DNA of 29,548 bases. Origin: a virus. The notes beneath the pieces were generated by a model. The model searched no databases. It was not told the origin of the DNA and was given only the letters and a program-made list of their open reading frames with translations. The DNA lies in the IMG/VR virus record IMGVR_UViG_3300009000_001496, positions 1 to 29,548 of that record, one strand, 5' to 3'. Of the stretch, positions 18,374 to 28,618 are shown one piece after another. Numbering within the stretch: position 1 is the first letter of the stretch; each line of letters begins with the position of its first letter. The translations under genes and the position numbers were made by a program.

Positions 18374-18697
18374 TTAAACTCCGAAACTTTCTCCACATCC
18401 ACAACTTGATGTTGCATTAGGGTTTTGTATACTCATGTATGATCCAAATACTTCTTTTTTATAGTCTATTGTAGTACCCATTACAAACATTAGACCAGTT
18501 GCATCAATAGCAAAATTGCCATTACTTAATTCAAATATCTCATCATCGTCTTCTACTGTATCTACAGCATTCCATTCATACTGAAAACCAGCACATCCAC
18601 CGCCCTTAACGCTTAATTTAACGTACTTTTTGCCTTCCTTTGCAATGACGGTTTCCATGTGTTCTTTTGCTGAATCTGTCACAGTTACAATGCTCAT
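18374..18697 (-). CDS. IscA/HesB-type Fe-S cluster carrier
   Basis: This 107-residue protein is an A-type iron-sulfur carrier, delivering Fe-S clusters to target proteins. The three conserved cysteines are present: C35 in GGGCAGF and C99/C101 in SSCGCGESF. Length matches the family. The frame stays open to 18829, but the start chosen is the ATG at 18697: it gives the standard family N-terminus, and a TAAATA element lies exactly 5 nt before it. No ribosome-binding site precedes it, so a leaderless message is likely. The giant fibre gene follows after 3 nt and probably shares the transcript. HesB-like genes occur in other marine T4-like phages. Confidence 0.93.
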   Translation of the reverse strand: MSIVTVTDSAKEHMETVIAKEGKKYVKLSVKGGGCAGFQYEWNAVDTVEDDDEIFELSNGNFAIDATGLMFVMGTTIDYKKEVFGSYMSIQNPNATSSCGCGESFGV

Positions 18698-18700
18698 GAC

Positions 18701-18708
18701 AATATTTA
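18701..18708 (-). promoter_or_regulatory. T4-late-like promoter, leaderless geometry
   Basis: CATAAATA, then TTGTC, then ATG of the IscA-type gene. The 5-nt gap puts the expected start on the A of ATG. It faces the rightward element at 18731-18737, about 22 nt away. Confidence 0.7.
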
Positions 18709-18730
18709 TGTTATATTTTATAATCCGAAT

Positions 18731-18737
18731 GTAAATA
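18731..18737 (+). promoter_or_regulatory. T4-late-like promoter, leaderless geometry
   Basis: GTAAATA, then GTGTT, then ATG at 18743 of the only complete rightward gene. The same 5-nt spacing on the opposite strand supports the pattern being functional rather than a strand composition effect. Confidence 0.68.
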
Positions 18738-18742
18738 GTGTT

Positions 18743-19030
18743 ATGTTCAAAAGAATAGAAAATTCTATAACTCACTACTATCGTAAAAGCAAAAAGGGCA
18801 AAGTACACCCCTACAAACGCATGAAACAAATTGCTGTGTTTGTATGTGATGAATGCAATGAAGAGTTTAAGCGTGAGAAAGGTAAAGTAGATCCTAGGCG
18901 GTTAAGCGACAACTATTTTCATGTATGTCCTAGTTGCGATCCTAAAAGATTTGCACAAAAACGTGGAGTTGAAAAAAGGCTGGTTTGGAATATGCCAGCC
19001 TCTATAGATAAACCAATTAGTAGTTTGTAA
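18743..19030 (+). CDS. Zinc-ribbon-like small protein
   Basis: This 95-residue protein has two CxxC pairs, CDEC at about 35-38 and CPSC at about 62-65, separated by a basic stretch (EFKREKGKVDPRRL). They could bind one zinc ion. The N-terminus and C-terminus are also basic, so DNA or RNA binding is plausible. The family was not recognised. It is the only complete gene on the + strand, set between a divergent IscA-type gene and a convergent membrane-protein gene. Its promoter is a TAAATA element 5 nt before the ATG and no ribosome site is visible. The long minus-strand frames over it are shadows. Confidence 0.78.
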   Translation: MFKRIENSITHYYRKSKKGKVHPYKRMKQIAVFVCDECNEEFKREKGKVDPRRLSDNYFHVCPSCDPKRFAQKRGVEKRLVWNMPASIDKPISSL

Positions 19031-19443: not shown

Positions 19444-19995
19444 CTAATCTTTAAGTATAATTACCCCACAAGCGAGTCGTTCACCTGCATTTCCGGTTTT
19501 GAGTGATTCTGCATCGCCGCCTTTACCTAGGTCATCTACATCAGCATGGACTACTATTGCACGACCAACAACACTGCGTTCACCTATTAGATCAACACGT
19601 TTTGCTATAATAGTGAAGTCGGCTACGCCGTCTGTGTTCGCTGTGACATTTCCTAAATCGCCTACATGACCATTATCAATATCACCGTGATCTACATCAT
19701 CGGGATTATAATGACCACCGGCGCTCTCACAGCCATCTGTCAAATCACCAAACTCGTGTATATGAAATCCATGTTCACCAGGTTCTAAACCTGTAATACG
19801 TCCTACTATTACAGTACCAGATCCTTTTTTCATTTGTCTCAACAAAATAGTTCCTTCTACTGATTCTCCGTGATCTAAATTACATAATGCAGTAACATAG
19901 TCATCTGATTCAGTAATAGTGGTAAGTTGAGTACACTGGCATTCTGCGGCTCTTGTTCTAGAGCAACTTTTTTCTGATATCTCTTGTAGTTTCAT
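19444..19995 (-). CDS. Cu/Zn superoxide dismutase, SOD1-like
   Basis: This 183-residue protein converts superoxide to O2 and H2O2. Every catalytic residue is present: copper ligands H78, H80, H95 and H150; zinc ligands H95, H103, H110 and D113; disulfide C89-C176; and active-site R173. Motifs GFHIHEFGD, HVGDLGNVTA, DDLGKGG and GNAGERLACGVI read like eukaryotic SOD1 rather than the periplasmic bacterial SodC type. There is no signal peptide. Instead there is a 32-residue N-terminal extension with C11, C19 and C21, of unknown role. The ATG at 19995 sits exactly 5 nt after AATAAATA, suggesting leaderless late expression. Two small genes follow in the same run. SOD is known in eukaryotic viruses, but it is unusual in phages. 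Confidence 0.95.
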   Translation of the reverse strand: MKLQEISEKSCSRTRAAECQCTQLTTITESDDYVTALCNLDHGESVEGTILLRQMKKGSGTVIVGRITGLEPGEHGFHIHEFGDLTDGCESAGGHYNPDDVDHGDIDNGHVGDLGNVTANTDGVADFTIIAKRVDLIGERSVVGRAIVVHADVDDLGKGGDAESLKTGNAGERLACGVIILKD

Positions 19996-20000
19996 ACAAG

Positions 20001-20008
20001 TATTTATT
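20001..20008 (-). promoter_or_regulatory. T4-late-like promoter, leaderless geometry
   Basis: AATAAATA, then CTTGT, then ATG of SOD. The element contains the TAA stop codon of the 52-residue ORF upstream. Confidence 0.7.
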
Positions 20009-20162
20009 GTTCTTTTTTATACAAGTCCCATAATTTATACTTGTTCCTCCAAGTTTTCATCTCTGATGCCAACTTGTAGTTATGTGGTATAAACTTTAGA
20101 GGTTCTTGCTCGAGTACTTTCCTGATTGGACTGTTCTCGAATAAAATTTCGTCCTCGCTCAT
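20004..20162 (-). CDS. Small hypothetical protein (52 aa), overlaps uvsE
   Basis: This protein starts MSEDEILFENSPIRKVLEQE and is charged and aromatic (KTWRNKYKLWDLYKKEQ); it was not recognised. The ATG at 20162 lies exactly 5 nt after CATAAATA, which is why this start was chosen over an upstream in-frame ATG. Its first 83 nt lie in another frame over the 3' end of the UV endonuclease gene, leaving about 75 nt of unique sequence before SOD. Promoter spacing supports it, the overlap argues for some caution. Confidence 0.6.
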   Translation of the reverse strand: MSEDEILFENSPIRKVLEQEPLKFIPHNYKLASEMKTWRNKYKLWDLYKKEQ

Positions 20163-21171
20163 AAAAATATTTATGCAGTTTTTCACTTGCAAGGTTCTTT
20201 GCTTTGCTTTCTACCATTATATCTGCGTACGGCCAAAACTCTAATGCCCAGTCATTTACTGCGTTGTTCCACATAAAATCACTGTGGGCACGTAGTTTTT
20301 GTTTCTTGTATCCTGTTTCTAGTAGTGATTCCATATTAGGTTTAGAATCCTGTGGGAAATCTACAAGCACATCTTCACGGCTAACACTGTAATGAATAAC
20401 AGGTCGAACACCACGCCAACTGTCTACTATGCGAGCAAATCTATCGTCGGTGGGTTGAATGTATTCTCCACTATTGACCCAGTGATGGTGTATGTCAAGA
20501 ACGAGGGCAAGGTGGTCTGCAAGTTCGAGGCTTGCGTCGATTCCCCACGACATTTCGTCGTTCTCGATCGTGATAGTGTTTCTTGCTTCAGGCGAGAGTC
20601 GTTTAAGTGCGTCGATGATACCTTGTGGACCTTTTCTACCCGATATGTGTACATTGCATTTAAAGTCTTGAAATGATTTGCCGTATCCCATCCACCTGAT
20701 GACATCCACATGATATTCAAACTCCTCTATACTTCTATTTACAATATCAGGATTATCTGACGCAAGTACAGTAAACTGACCAGGGTGCATAGAAAGCCTA
20801 ACATCAAGTTCCCTTGCAACTTTGCCGGCCCTTGCGAAATGCTTTTCGCAATATGCGACCACATCAGGTAGTTTCCAATAATAGCACCAAGTAGGCTCTG
20901 TGTACACAGGAAGGACATCACTACCAAGTCTAACCATGCGTAGTTCATTAGGTAATCCTCCTACGTATCTAATCAAGTTTTCAAACGATTTGATGTTATG
21001 TACCATAATATCCCATAGACGTTCTTCTGCAACTTCTTTAGTTTGTCTATTAAGCCATGCAACAGTTGTTGAACGTGTATTGAATGGGCGTTGAATTTCT
21101 TCTAGTAACTTTTTCTTTTGTGTTTGGTCGTGATGCATATACTTACATGCAAATCCAATTCGTTTTGTCAT
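20080..21171 (-). CDS. uvsE: UV-damage endonuclease (UVDE/UvsE)
   Basis: This 363-residue TIM-barrel endonuclease nicks DNA 5' of UV photoproducts. UVDE-family signatures run in order: RIGFACKYM at the start, MVRLGSDVLPVYT, RLSMHPGQFTVL with SIEEFEYHVDVI, NVHISGRKG, TIENDE, LVLDIHHHWVN and VIHYSVSRE. These carry the His/Glu/Asp metal ligands. The start chosen is the ATG at 21171, which overlaps the phosphomannomutase stop as ATGA; the frame extends seven codons further. A sigma70-like promoter inside the upstream gene (21213-21241) could drive it separately. Such a repair enzyme makes sense for a phage in sunlit surface water (inference). Confidence 0.93.
   Translation of the reverse strand: MTKRIGFACKYMHHDQTQKKKLLEEIQRPFNTRSTTVAWLNRQTKEVAEERLWDIMVHNIKSFENLIRYVGGLPNELRMVRLGSDVLPVYTEPTWCYYWKLPDVVAYCEKHFARAGKVARELDVRLSMHPGQFTVLASDNPDIVNRSIEEFEYHVDVIRWMGYGKSFQDFKCNVHISGRKGPQGIIDALKRLSPEARNTITIENDEMSWGIDASLELADHLALVLDIHHHWVNSGEYIQPTDDRFARIVDSWRGVRPVIHYSVSREDVLVDFPQDSKPNMESLLETGYKKQKLRAHSDFMWNNAVNDWALEFWPYADIMVESKAKNLASEKLHKYFYERGRNFIREQSNQESTRARTSKVYTT
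20168..20175 (-). promoter_or_regulatory. T4-late-like promoter, leaderless geometry
   Basis: CATAAATA, then TTTTT, then ATG of the 52-residue ORF, all inside the uvsE coding region. Confidence 0.6.
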
Positions 21172-21869
21172 AGTGTTTTTAATATTTTCCAAGTTTCTTC
21201 CCAGTCTTTAATATGATAACACAAACCTAGATCTTTGTCAACAAGCAGTTTTTTCAAAGGATAATCGTTTCCTGCTTTATCCATTCTATCACCAAAGAAA
21301 TGTAATTCATCATTAGGATCAAAGTCTTTTATAATTTGTCCTTTGTCATTGCCTTTTGGATATATGTCTATTCCAGTTTCTCCACCAACTCGTGCTTCTA
21401 TATTTGGAAAAAGTTCATTAAATTGTTTTGCAATAGTATTGCGTTCGTTTTTATGCTCATCCCATTCTTTATATATGAAACGCTCTTCTAAATTTGCATT
21501 ACGTCCTACAATGCTATAGTTTACCATGCCAGGGCGATGTTCAAAGTGTAGTCCTGTTTTTCTGTAAAACTTGCTTTCTTGTAGTTGTATTTCCAACCAC
21601 GCAATAGCATCTTCGGGCAGATGCCATACTTTAGAAAAAATGTTTTTACCATTTTCCCACACGTCGCTACCTGAACAGTTATATACACGGTTTACATTTT
21701 CACAAATTGTGGAACCAAGTTGTTCTAAAGTTTTAGGATAGTCACTACCAGTAATTAGATAAACATTATGATCATAGATAAATTCTATAAACCATTTTTG
21801 GAATTGATCGTTTATTTTTTGTCGACTAGGTGTAAGTGTGCCATCGACGTCGAAAATATACCTTTTCAA
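21168..21869 (-). CDS. Eukaryote-type (PMM2-like, HAD) phosphomannomutase
   Basis: This 233-residue protein matches the HAD-type phosphomannomutase family found mainly in eukaryotes, which interconverts mannose-6-P and mannose-1-P for GDP-mannose synthesis. Motifs in order are FDVDGTLTPSRQKI with D7/D9, a GSD segment at 41-43, FEHRPGMVNYSIVGRNA (109-125), GGETGIDIYPKGNDKGQ (162-178) and FFGDRM with GNDYP. It lacks the phosphoserine signature of bacterial ManB-type enzymes. Length is close to human PMM2 (246). The start codon is TTG at 21869, with a GGAG site 7 nt upstream and a stop just above in the only ATG frame. The uvsE start overlaps its stop. A sigma70-like promoter lies directly upstream. 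Confidence 0.9.
   Translation of the reverse strand: MKRYIFDVDGTLTPSRQKINDQFQKWFIEFIYDHNVYLITGSDYPKTLEQLGSTICENVNRVYNCSGSDVWENGKNIFSKVWHLPEDAIAWLEIQLQESKFYRKTGLHFEHRPGMVNYSIVGRNANLEERFIYKEWDEHKNERNTIAKQFNELFPNIEARVGGETGIDIYPKGNDKGQIIKDFDPNDELHFFGDRMDKAGNDYPLKKLLVDKDLGLCYHIKDWEETWKILKTL
21213..21241 (-). promoter_or_regulatory. Sigma70-like promoter for uvsE
   Basis: Inside the phosphomannomutase gene: TTGACA (21241-21236), 17 nt, TATCAT (21218-21213). A predicted start near 21206 gives a leader of about 35 nt before uvsE. Confidence 0.6.
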
Positions 21870-21920: not shown

Positions 21921-22574
21921 CTAAATTTTGTCTTTGATTGCTTTAAGAATTGCCAATGCAGATTCGTTACTTCCGTCGAACTGCATACCTAGTTTATCTG
22001 CAACTGCATTTAGTTCGTCGTCTAGTAAATCATTTGATACTACTTGATCAACATTTTTAAATGTTAATACCATGTTAATTGCACGTCTTTCTTCTGTGCC
22101 TGTATAAGCAGTTACTCCGTGCCATACACTACTTGGAAACATTACAATTTTACCAGGCTTAAAAGGAATTACGTATTTGCCATCACCTTTAACTCCGCCC
22201 CATAGTTTTGGATTTTCCCATCTTGGATCCCAAAGGACTAAATCACCGCCTTGTCCTTCTTGACCTTCGAACCAACATACTGCACTTATAGTTCCTCCAT
22301 GATCTTCATCTGTATGGATATCCATTCCTGTACTATTAGGTGAAAATGTGCTTAACCAACTGCTTGCAACTACAGGTGTTATATGATGCTTTGGAGTAAA
22401 ATCTTTTGCCCAATCTATTACAGATTGTTTAATATCCTTTAGCCCGTCAATTTGTGACATTGGTTCTAGTTGACCTGATGGAATATCAGGAAAATTGTTA
22501 ATCTTAATGTTATTTTCTTTTACTATAGTACCCCAAAGTACTTTGTAATCTTCAAATTCAAATGTTCTGCTCAT
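21921..22574 (-). CDS. 2-oxoglutarate/Fe(II)-dependent dioxygenase
   Basis: This 217-residue protein has the double-stranded beta-helix iron triad: H87-x-D89 (in DIHTDEDHGG) and H152 (in PSSVWHGVTAYTGTEERR). R163 or R164 is placed to bind 2-oxoglutarate. The stretch GQGGDLVLWDPRWE and the GKIVMFPSS strand are typical of phage and prolyl-hydroxylase-like members. Substrate is unknown; related phage enzymes are proposed to hydroxylate proteins or modify nucleic acids or sugars. The ATG at 22574 lies 5 nt after GGTAAATA, giving a leaderless geometry. It stands between the glycosyltransferase and phosphomannomutase genes. Confidence 0.9.
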   Translation of the reverse strand: MSRTFEFEDYKVLWGTIVKENNIKINNFPDIPSGQLEPMSQIDGLKDIKQSVIDWAKDFTPKHHITPVVASSWLSTFSPNSTGMDIHTDEDHGGTISAVCWFEGQEGQGGDLVLWDPRWENPKLWGGVKGDGKYVIPFKPGKIVMFPSSVWHGVTAYTGTEERRAINMVLTFKNVDQVVSNDLLDDELNAVADKLGMQFDGSNESALAILKAIKDKI

Positions 22575-22596: not shown

Positions 22597-23463
22597 TCAC
22601 TTCCAATTATTTTTTACCCACGGATCATCACAATTATGTGGATTTGGATCTCCGTGAAACACGCAAATAGAACAATCATCAGGTGGTATCACATCTTCTA
22701 CTTCTCTAAATCTTCTATTGCCCTTGGCTCCGGAAGTTAAAATCCTGCATTTACGCACTTCCCATTTCCAACTTCTAATCCATTCATCAGGCCATAATGT
22801 AGCAGGATTTGATTGATTAGTTGCTGTCCATAACCAATCTTGATCTCCAAAATGACTTTTAATTATTGATTTTGGATCTTTAATAAAGTGTGTCCATACA
22901 TCATTTAGTTGTCCTAATTTAAATCTAATAACACTTGAGTTATACTTTTTCCACTGCGGTTGCATCGATCTAGTAAAATCTCTAATTACACACCATTTGT
23001 CTACTTCGTACTCAAACAGTTTATCCAAATTGCCACTTACAACAACATCTAGATCCATATACAAAATTGTACTGTCTTTTGCTAAAGGTAAGTCTGCTGA
23101 ATACATGTAAGGCTTACACCACCAACCAGTAAGTTCTTTTGGCAAATCTAAACAAAGTATATCTTTATTGATATCTTGTTTATTATCTGTTAAACATACC
23201 ATAGTAAAAGGAATTGTAAGATTTTGTTTTACCATGCTGTAAAGTGTGTTTACATATTTTGCACTATACTTGTCACCGTGCTTTAAACACAGTACATAGT
23301 TTTTTCCTTTACTATTTACAGCATCATATGATGGATAGCCTTTTTCAAATACTGGGGCTACTACTTCTTGTTTGCGGCGGTTGTTTTCTTTTTCAAGCCG
23401 ACGCTGTTCTCTTATTTTTTTCCATTCTTCTTTAGAATATTGACTTTTATCAATCTTCGGCAC
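22597..23463 (-). CDS. GT8-like glycosyltransferase
   Basis: This 288-residue protein resembles GT-A-fold glycosyltransferases near family 8. It has YVLCLKHGDKYSAKYVNTLY at the start of the catalytic domain (about 56-75), the metal-binding DxD as D137-L-D139 in YMDLDVVVSGNLDKLFE, then NSSVIRF and FGDQDWL. About 45 N-terminal residues are a charged helix (KKIREQRRLEKENNRRKQ), perhaps a coiled coil. The start is GTG at 23463, overlapping kdsA by 14 nt, with AGGGAG upstream. Donor and acceptor are unknown. Next to KdsA it may act on a surface sugar or on a virion protein. Confidence 0.8.
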   Translation of the reverse strand: MPKIDKSQYSKEEWKKIREQRRLEKENNRRKQEVVAPVFEKGYPSYDAVNSKGKNYVLCLKHGDKYSAKYVNTLYSMVKQNLTIPFTMVCLTDNKQDINKDILCLDLPKELTGWWCKPYMYSADLPLAKDSTILYMDLDVVVSGNLDKLFEYEVDKWCVIRDFTRSMQPQWKKYNSSVIRFKLGQLNDVWTHFIKDPKSIIKSHFGDQDWLWTATNQSNPATLWPDEWIRSWKWEVRKCRILTSGAKGNRRFREVEDVIPPDDCSICVFHGDPNPHNCDDPWVKNNWK

Positions 23464-24238
23464 TCTCTAATGCTCCCTTTATTTTTACTATATCATCAAT
23501 AATTTTTTCAAAGTCAGTTAACTTAACCATATTAGGTCCGTCACTTGGAGCATTATCTGGATCAGCATGTACTTCTAAAAAGAAATTTGTGATCCCCAAA
23601 GCACACCCGCTACGAGCCATCCCAGGGACGAAAGAACGATTGCCGCCGCTACTAGTCCCCAATCCTCCGGGTTTTTGGACAGAGTGCGTAACATCGTACA
23701 CGATGTCAGCGTCAATATTGTCGAGCATCCACATAAGACCAGTATAATCCACGACAAGAGTGTTATATCCAAAACTTGTTCCCCTTTCTGTAATCCATAC
23801 TTCTTTTGCACCTTCTGTTTTTGAAAGTATACCTTCAACGTCCCATGGTGCAAGGAACTGTCCTTTCTTGATATTTACAATCTTTTTTGTTTTGCATGCC
23901 GCTTGTACTAAATCAGTTTGACGGCATAAAAATGCCGGGATCTGTAACACATCAACTATATCGTTATAGTATGCGGCAATCTTTAGAACTTCGTTTTGAT
24001 TATGAACATCAGTAAGTGTTTTACAACCTACTTGTTCTTTTATCATTTTAAAATCTTTAAGTGTAGTTTCTAATCCTACACCTCGTTTGCCTTTGATGTT
24101 GGTTCTATTTGCTTTATCAAAACTTGCCTTGAAATAGTATTCTATATCGTATTTGTCACAAACACGTTGACACTCGCGAGCAATCTCCATACTTTGATGT
24201 AGAGTTTCGTGTTGACAAGGTCCTGCTATAATTCTCAT
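23450..24238 (-). CDS. kdsA: KDO-8-phosphate synthase, metal-dependent type
   Basis: This 262-residue enzyme condenses phosphoenolpyruvate with arabinose-5-phosphate to KDO-8-phosphate, the precursor of the KDO sugar of lipopolysaccharide. Family signatures run the full length: FKASFDKANRTNIKG, DVLQIPAFLCRQTDL, NIKKGQFLAPWDVE, ERGTSFGYNTLVVDYT and EVHADPDNAPSDGPNM. C8 in AGPC, with H185, E222 and D233, indicates the metal-dependent class rather than the Asn-bearing E. coli class. The start overlaps the cupin gene as ATGA. No KdsB, KdsC or KdsD is visible here, so the product must enter a host pathway if the enzyme acts as KdsA (inference). Confidence 0.95.
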   Translation of the reverse strand: MRIIAGPCQHETLHQSMEIARECQRVCDKYDIEYYFKASFDKANRTNIKGKRGVGLETTLKDFKMIKEQVGCKTLTDVHNQNEVLKIAAYYNDIVDVLQIPAFLCRQTDLVQAACKTKKIVNIKKGQFLAPWDVEGILSKTEGAKEVWITERGTSFGYNTLVVDYTGLMWMLDNIDADIVYDVTHSVQKPGGLGTSSGGNRSFVPGMARSGCALGITNFFLEVHADPDNAPSDGPNMVKLTDFEKIIDDIVKIKGALESAED

Positions 24239-24563: not shown

Positions 24564-25013
24564 TTAACCCTCGTAGATTGCTGAATTGGCACCGTGTTCA
24601 GCACATTCTACTCGTACACAGTAACAACGGTTGTCACTCATTTCACGTACTAGTTTATCAGCAAAATTAAATGCGTGTTCAGCAAACTTCTCTGCGCCAA
24701 CACCATCCATAATAACAACTTCTGCTAGATCCATATCATTAAGTTTTAAAAATGTATCCAAGTGTGGATCGTGTTTATCAATTGCTGTTTTGTGATCGAA
24801 GTGATCTTCAAGCCACTTCTTCAAAGGCTTTAGTCCGCCAAAGTCAACTGCCCAGTTTTTGTTGTCTAGTTCATCACAACCAAACGTGAATGTAAATGCT
24901 AGACTGTAACCGTGTAGTAGATGACAGTGTGAATGATCTGCGTTAGGTTGACGGAACACTGCCGATAGGCCAATGTTGTGTCCGTAGTGTTTTGTACTGT
25001 AATGTTTTCCCAT
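24564..25013 (-). CDS. QueD/6-pyruvoyltetrahydropterin synthase-like protein
   Basis: This 149-residue protein has the T-fold pattern of 6-carboxytetrahydropterin synthase (QueD) or PTPS: HLLHGYSLAFTF, NWAVDFGGLKPL, HFDHKTAID and the final VECAEHGANSAIY. QueD acts early in the 7-deazaguanine (queuosine) pathway. The zinc site is divergent. The usual HGH is HGY here (H34, Y36), and the upstream AAH histidine is replaced by phenylalanine (LSAVFRQ). A local cluster H27, H29, C30, H31 might substitute. The start follows AGGAG. No FolE, QueC or QueE is seen here, so its role in DNA/RNA modification or pterin synthesis is unproved. Confidence 0.8.
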   Translation of the reverse strand: MGKHYSTKHYGHNIGLSAVFRQPNADHSHCHLLHGYSLAFTFTFGCDELDNKNWAVDFGGLKPLKKWLEDHFDHKTAIDKHDPHLDTFLKLNDMDLAEVVIMDGVGAEKFAEHAFNFADKLVREMSDNRCYCVRVECAEHGANSAIYEG

Positions 25014-28025: not shown

Positions 28026-28618
28026 TAGTCTCTCCTTTTAAAAATTTCGTCAATAAGTCCATAGTCGAGTGCTTCTTGAGCAGTCATAAACTTATCACGT
28101 TCCATATCATTCGCAAGTTCTTCAAATGTTTTGCCCTTGCTGTTATGCTGAACGTATACATTAGTTAGTTCTTTTTTAAGTTTGATAATTTCTTCTGCAT
28201 GAATTTGAATATCAGTTGCTTGTCCACTAGCACCACCACTTGGTTGGTGAATCATGTGTCTAGCATGTGGCAACATAAAACGTTTACCTGGTTCTCCTGC
28301 TTGAGCAAGCAATGAGCCCATTGAGCAAGCCTGACCCATTACATATGTGTACACGGGCGATTTGATGTATTGCATAGTATCATAGATAGCCATGCCCGAA
28401 CTTACTACACCCCCAGGTGAGTTAATATAAAAGTGAATTGGCTTGTCACGGTTTTGTGATTCCAATAAAATAAGTTGTGCTGTAATCGAGTGTGCTACAG
28501 CATCGTGGACTGCACCGTTTAAAAATACGATACGTTCTTTTAATAGTCTTGAAAAAATATCATATGCTCTTTCGCCATCTTGATTCTTTTCAACCACCAT
28601 TGGGATTAGACTGCTCAT
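28025..28618 (-). CDS. clpP: ClpP-type ATP-dependent protease subunit
   Basis: This 197-residue serine protease is the proteolytic chamber subunit of the Clp system. The catalytic triad is complete: S99 in GQACSMGS, H124 in MIHQPSGG, and D171 in [10 protein letters not shown]. Other conserved pieces are [20 protein letters not shown] and [10 protein letters not shown]. It has no long propeptide. Length matches bacterial ClpP (about 200 residues). An AGGAG site precedes the ATG, which shares a base with the stop of the 306-residue gene. Phage ClpP could combine with host ClpA/ClpX or host ClpP to change protein turnover, or act in virion maturation (inference). Confidence 0.95.

Follow-up and report, generated by a model that had tools for sequence, protein, structure and literature searches.

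A SOD1-type Cu/Zn superoxide dismutase of uncultured phages carries an N-terminal extension that reads as a candidate T4-type capsid-targeting propeptide

The window, a stretch of viral DNA of 29,548 nucleotides, encodes a Cu/Zn superoxide dismutase (SOD) with an N-terminal extension, which lies among genes for metabolic, repair and iron-sulfur proteins (Table 1). The preliminary description gave the coordinates of this open reading frame exactly; the strand, which it did not state, is minus, and the plus-strand reading of the same positions contains many stops. UvdE lies within 5 kb of the SOD gene in 17/58 and an A-type Fe-S carrier in 19/58 non-redundant members of the SOD family, in both cases on the same strand. 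An element fitting the late-type promoter proposed for sod was also found, a T4-late-like TAAATA 5 nt ahead of its ATG, and 32 of the 42 SOD members scored have [TC]AAATA 3-8 nt before the start codon. Across the window, TAAATA stands exactly 5 nt before the ATG of six out of 35 ORFs, and genomes G001, G002 and G003 show a similar excess of TAAATA ~4-6 nt before the start. The geometry of T4 late promoters would put the ATG at or adjoining the transcript start. Should these elements act as late promoters of the T4 type, the transcripts would have little or no leader.

Table 1. Features of the sod locus and other annotated genes in the window
Feature	Position	Strand	Basis or remark
4Fe-4S ferredoxin	384-719
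A-type Fe-S cluster carrier	18374..18829	-	Pfam; downstream of sod; ATG 18697 with its own TAAATA
sod, Cu/Zn superoxide dismutase with N-terminal extension, 183 aa	19444..19995	-	ORF and Pfam Sod_Cu
SOD1 fold, residues 33-183	19447..19899	-	AlphaFold2 model and structural alignment to human SOD1 1-153
Proposed prohead-protease cleavage site I-T-E↓S, residues 27-29	19909..19917	-	T4 motif likeness
Cys module, residues 11-21, CSRTRAAECQC	19933..19965	-	Alignment of relatives
Proposed capsid-targeting sequence, residues 1-8, MKLQEISE	19972..19995	-	Motif likeness to T4 IPIII
TAAATA, T4-late-promoter-like	20001..20006	-	5 nt before sod ATG
UvdE UV-damage endonuclease	20080..21192	-	Pfam; upstream of sod, same strand
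Phosphomannomutase-like HAD	21171-21869
2OG-Fe(II) oxygenase	21924-22574
DAHP synthase family (KdsA-like)	23453-24238
PTPS	24567-25013
ClpP	28028-28618
ORF starts preceded by TAAATA	18697, 19995, 22574, 26168, 26512	-
ORF start preceded by TAAATA	18743	+

The Pfam Sod_Cu profile matched residues 46-179 of the window protein with E=3.8e-46 and 157 bits (cut-off 28.9) and was covered end to end (1-133/133). All of the motifs previously singled out as SOD1-like (HEFGD, HVGDLGNVTA, DDLGKGG and GNAGERLACGVI) are found in the protein, and the set of copper, zinc and disulfide residues is complete, as had been claimed. In an alignment of 37 phage sequences, the copper ligands (H78, H80, H95, H150), the zinc ligands (H95, H103, H110, D113), the C89-C176 disulfide and the active-site R173 are all invariant. 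The protein was said to have no signal peptide, and no hydrophobic signal segment was found in it, so a signal peptide or lipoprotein reading was dropped. Its identity as a Cu/Zn superoxide dismutase is secure, and dismutase activity is predicted.

In an AlphaFold2 model, the SOD fold superimposed on human SOD1 with a Z of 25.3 and an rmsd of 1.1 over 150 residues. Because this structural match starts at residue 33, the earlier count of 32 residues for the extension is correct. The extension was also held to lie outside the SOD fold, which agrees with its pLDDT of ~47-63 compared to mostly 80-97 in the core.

The preliminary description placed the protein closer to cytosolic eukaryotic SOD1 than to periplasmic SodC. 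Sequence identity bears this out, with 53% to a human SOD1 variant versus 36% to Gifsy-2 SodC and 42-50% to the ten best Pseudomonadota matches after contig L119/L195 in a scan of 398 genomes. The likeness to SOD1 extends to the same metal ligands and the electrostatic loop (E163, K166, T167). The phylogeny that had been suggested as a check was run on 71 rows, with eukaryotes represented by only four PDB-derived rows and bacteria by one class (alphaproteobacterial). Phage SODs form a single branch (support 100/98), which falls within a set holding animal and plant SOD1 (support 100/98), and the alphaproteobacterial SodC and Gifsy-2 SodC lie on the opposite side of supported branches. The phage enzyme thus groups with eukaryotic SOD1 and apart from bacterial SodC, and a bacterial SodC that lost its signal peptide was rejected because the tree puts the bacterial rows and Gifsy-2 elsewhere. 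From these comparisons, ancestry of the eukaryotic SOD1 type is secure; the donor cannot be named because the eukaryote sampling is small. The top-scoring SOD of the Pseudomonadota scan, 56% identical, is encoded on a Rickettsiales bin contig (L119/L195; 3818-4432 in L119), has an N-terminal anchor and branches just outside the phage and eukaryote group. This contig encodes an unusual series of small proteins, of which several have a membrane segment, and its SOD may be viral.

A first scan of viral contigs returned 84 relatives of the phage SOD, and a profile scan extended the family to 256 or more contigs of uncultured viruses. The first 80 relatives are 55-99% identical in the best segment, and nearly all have the extension. 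The family belongs to uncultured, mostly marine bacterial viruses, and its members are mutually related, so that counts of members are not independent. It is absent from cultured phage records, where distant SodC-like matches were the only ones found. Cellular genome bins gave six matches, of which four also align over the extension and are probably misbinned phage sequences. Since 14 large contigs with related gp23 carry no SOD (0/14), sod is a sporadic, accessory gene.

The extension has three separable parts: an N-terminal motif, a Cys module and an [LIVM]-x-E site. The family N-terminus, M-[KRHN]-Φ-x-E-Φ, shares its Φ-x-E-Φ core with the capsid-targeting sequence of T4 IPIII (N-terminus MKTYQEFIAE), and the spacing of Y4-x-E6-F7 in IPIII equals that of L3-x-E5-I6 in the window SOD. 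Residues 4 and 7 of IPIII are targeting determinants, and residues 8 and 10 are determinants of processing (PMC9026906). The strict form M[KRHN]ΦxE[FILMV] is present in 21/28 standalone non-redundant members; in a wider set of 46 N-termini, a few of which are internal methionines of fusions, 29 match strictly and 37 loosely. Of the 711 ORFs in three large sister genomes, 16 fit the strict motif, namely two SODs and 14 of the 709 others, compared to ~1.1 matches expected among 711 ORFs from shuffled N-termini. Several of the 14 non-SOD ORFs sit in SOD cargo clusters. By this likeness, the first eight residues of the window protein look like a candidate capsid-targeting sequence.

In 58/58 non-redundant members, an [LIVM]-x-E motif (scored as a motif only) is separated from the SOD1 fold by three residues. 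In the first 37 members, P3 is L in 18, I in 16 and V in three, P1 is always E, and P1' is mostly A, S, Q or D. T4 gp21 cleaves after L/I-X-E (PMC9026906). With cleavage at I-T-E29, the enzyme would exceed SOD1 in length by three residues. Three members without the Cys module keep VYE↓A at the same position, showing that the protease-type site is conserved independently. No match for the extension was found in PHROG. Taken as a whole, the extension resembles a capsid-targeting propeptide of the T4 type that includes a prohead-protease site. This sharpens the earlier suggestion that the extension docks onto something and favors the particle over the cytoplasm.

A prohead protease was found in one SOD genome. 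The 221 kb genome G003 has a head block with a T4 portal, an S77 prohead protease, scaffold and gp23, in which protease, scaffold and gp23 adjoin, and relatives of the G003 phage have L-x-E↓[NTSA] at the presumed gp23 propeptide site in 37/37 cases. Among 20 SOD contigs tested, the protease was found in G003 only and a portal in two; head genes were not found in the window itself. Absence of the protease elsewhere says little, since the other contigs either have no portal or break off at that gene, and SOD contigs without a head region look like fragments.

The SOD family occurs in two genomic contexts, either between UvdE and an A-type Fe-S carrier, as in the window and many other loci, or with cargo-like modules, and the extension with its ITE-type site is identical in kind across both. 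In several phages, SOD is one module within a longer fusion protein. Most of the ~10 fusions have [LIV]xE no more than 10 residues ahead of the Cys module or eight residues past SOD; at many borders P3 is V, where T4 has L or I, and a border site is absent from some fusions. Partner modules of SOD include a nucleotidase, ParB-like stretches, a GH19-like module and small basic Cys-containing modules, and in contig L015 a 5'-nucleotidase domain (NT5C) is accompanied by a GH19-like domain slightly below the Pfam cut-off. Across the loci of the first set, six ORFs carry the DVG module, 17 the NPKG module and 15 the FADGK module. In G001, SOD belongs to a same-strand gene series and has overlaps of a few bases with the genes next to it, and several genes of the series have the same N-terminal motif. 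Large mosaic proteins combining SOD with other modules were seen in L067, L069, L073, L015, L034 and L079, several with [LIV]xE borders.

One tentative extension of these observations is that these phages have a general modular head-cargo system, built from SOD, nucleotidase, ParB-like, GH19-like and small Cys-rich basic modules. Enzyme modules would be swappable and made singly or as a polyprotein, a single N-terminal tag would target them to the prohead, the prohead protease would separate them, and the copper-loading Cys segment of SOD would be removed on maturation. The cytidylyltransferase T4-GC190 was detected in S-SM1 virions (PMC3037559). It was set aside as support for the cargo cluster, as a link to the nucleotidyltransferase in the SOD cluster of G001 is not established.

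For the SOD itself, we consider it fairly probable that the protein is a head-packaged, protease-matured internal protein of the phage. We favor packaging over any other single explanation, since the tag, the site, the fusions, the protease and the late promoter agree and there is a close T4 precedent. We infer packaging, cleavage, metal loading, injection and activity of the enzyme, which would proceed as follows. SOD would be synthesised late in infection and taken into the head, where it would be an internal protein; its first residues would serve for capsid targeting by docking the precursor on the prohead core. Cleavage after I-T-E29 by the S77 prohead protease would free a SOD whose N-terminus lies three residues ahead of that of SOD1. 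The Cys module, which lies between the tag and the cleavage site, would probably help the precursor, by copper or zinc binding or by thiol chemistry. Mature SOD would remain among the packaged DNA and be injected with it, and would either clear superoxide from the cell just infected or shield the packaged genome. Points against packaging are the shortness of the L-x-E motif, the fusion borders with V at P3 or with no site, the minority of standalone members that depart from the strict N-terminal motif, the finding of the protease in one of 20 contigs, the strong conservation of the Cys module, and the UvdE and Fe-S carrier cassette.

The UvdE and Fe-S carrier cassette of the window also fits a cytoplasmic stress enzyme, which is the main rival and is relevant to window-type members. 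On this account, which we judge rather unlikely, a late cytoplasmic SOD acts in a UvdE-SOD-Fe-S-carrier cassette to protect replicating DNA and Fe-S enzymes from superoxide, and the extension serves as a tail for regulation or metal binding with no packaging signal. Pfam confirms both neighbours in the window, they recur on the same strand near 17/58 (UvdE) and 19/58 (carrier) members, and the late-type promoter element suits this account as well. However, members in cargo clusters and fusions carry the same extension and ITE-type site, and the three members that dropped the Cys module kept the cleavage-type site.

A second alternative centers on the Cys module. The three cysteines first noted in the extension (C11, C19 and C21) are invariant in 37 aligned phage sequences, as is T14, and the consensus C-x-R-T-[KR]-A-x2-C-x-C is present in 55/58 non-redundant members. 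Conservation at this active-site level goes beyond the need of a discarded propeptide. The eukaryotic copper chaperone CCS has a CXC domain III. By analogy, the extension could be a built-in copper-loading domain that activates a SOD1-type enzyme in a bacterial cytoplasm without CCS, with or without packaging. The invariant residues, including the C-x-C pair, are in line with this proposal, as is the finding that no non-SOD protein in the loci scanned carries the module, which also led us to drop the idea of a general phage module. Three members do without the module, though, PHROG offers no match, and AlphaFold2 gives the extension no confident structure, so that we regard dedicated copper loading as improbable. 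Finally, it is very improbable that the protein is an SOD-like virion component that is inactive or acts as a decoy, as in poxviruses: the viral fold matches include SOD-like virion proteins of poxviruses, but metal ligands, active-site Arg and disulfide are invariant in all 37 sequences.

The phage SOD can be compared with several known systems. Compared to eukaryotic SOD1, the phage protein adds a targeting-like N-terminus, the Cys module and the protease-like site. T4 IPI-IPIII and Alt have a short N-terminal capsid-targeting propeptide, with the Φ-x-E-Φ core in IPIII, that is cut by an S77 protease after L/I-X-E (PMC9026906), and the phage extension resembles it in its motifs; the propeptide-like region of the SOD, of ~29 residues, differs in containing a Cys module, and T4 cargo consists of anti-restriction proteins or an ADP-ribosyltransferase and includes no redox enzyme. 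Chlorovirus PBCV-1 encodes an active Cu/Zn SOD (A245R) that is expressed late and packaged in the virion, but this is a eukaryotic virus with no phage head, and a prohead-protease propeptide is not described (PMC7019647). The Gifsy-2 and Fels-1 prophages also encode Cu/Zn SODs, but of the bacterial periplasmic type with a signal peptide and ~35% identity, and Gifsy-2 SodC falls on a separate branch. Polyvalent phage proteins are multi-domain, and up to 35% are likely capsid-packaged (Iyer et al. 2017, PMC5512222), although the main text of that study makes no mention of superoxide.

A keyword search of the literature on SOD in phages and viromes, judged by title, returned no title on a phage virion SOD, and a proteome search found nothing either. 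To our knowledge, no bacterial virus packages and injects superoxide dismutase, and we know of no antioxidant enzyme as phage-particle cargo; the phage SOD would be the first, if the head-cargo reading is true. This would point to superoxide at infection, or to the damage that packaged DNA suffers in sunlit water, as something that phages spend resources to counter. The sequence rule of a Φ-x-E-Φ tag with [L/I/V]-x-E borders would then help to find injected cargo among the many proteins of marine T4-like phages that are annotated as hypothetical.

The cultured cyanophages S-SM2, Bellamy and P-TIM68 have the NPKG module, one of the SOD partner modules, as well. T4-style N-termini precede it in S-SM2 (MKTLKQFLKE) and Bellamy (MKSFKQFQES), where the NPKG genes lie between tail-fibre and terminase genes; in P-TIM68, the NPKG-module protein is the second gene after gp23. 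The hypothetical proteins at 3144-3572 of L225 (S-SM2) and 2447-2602 of L392 (Bellamy) are candidate internal head proteins.
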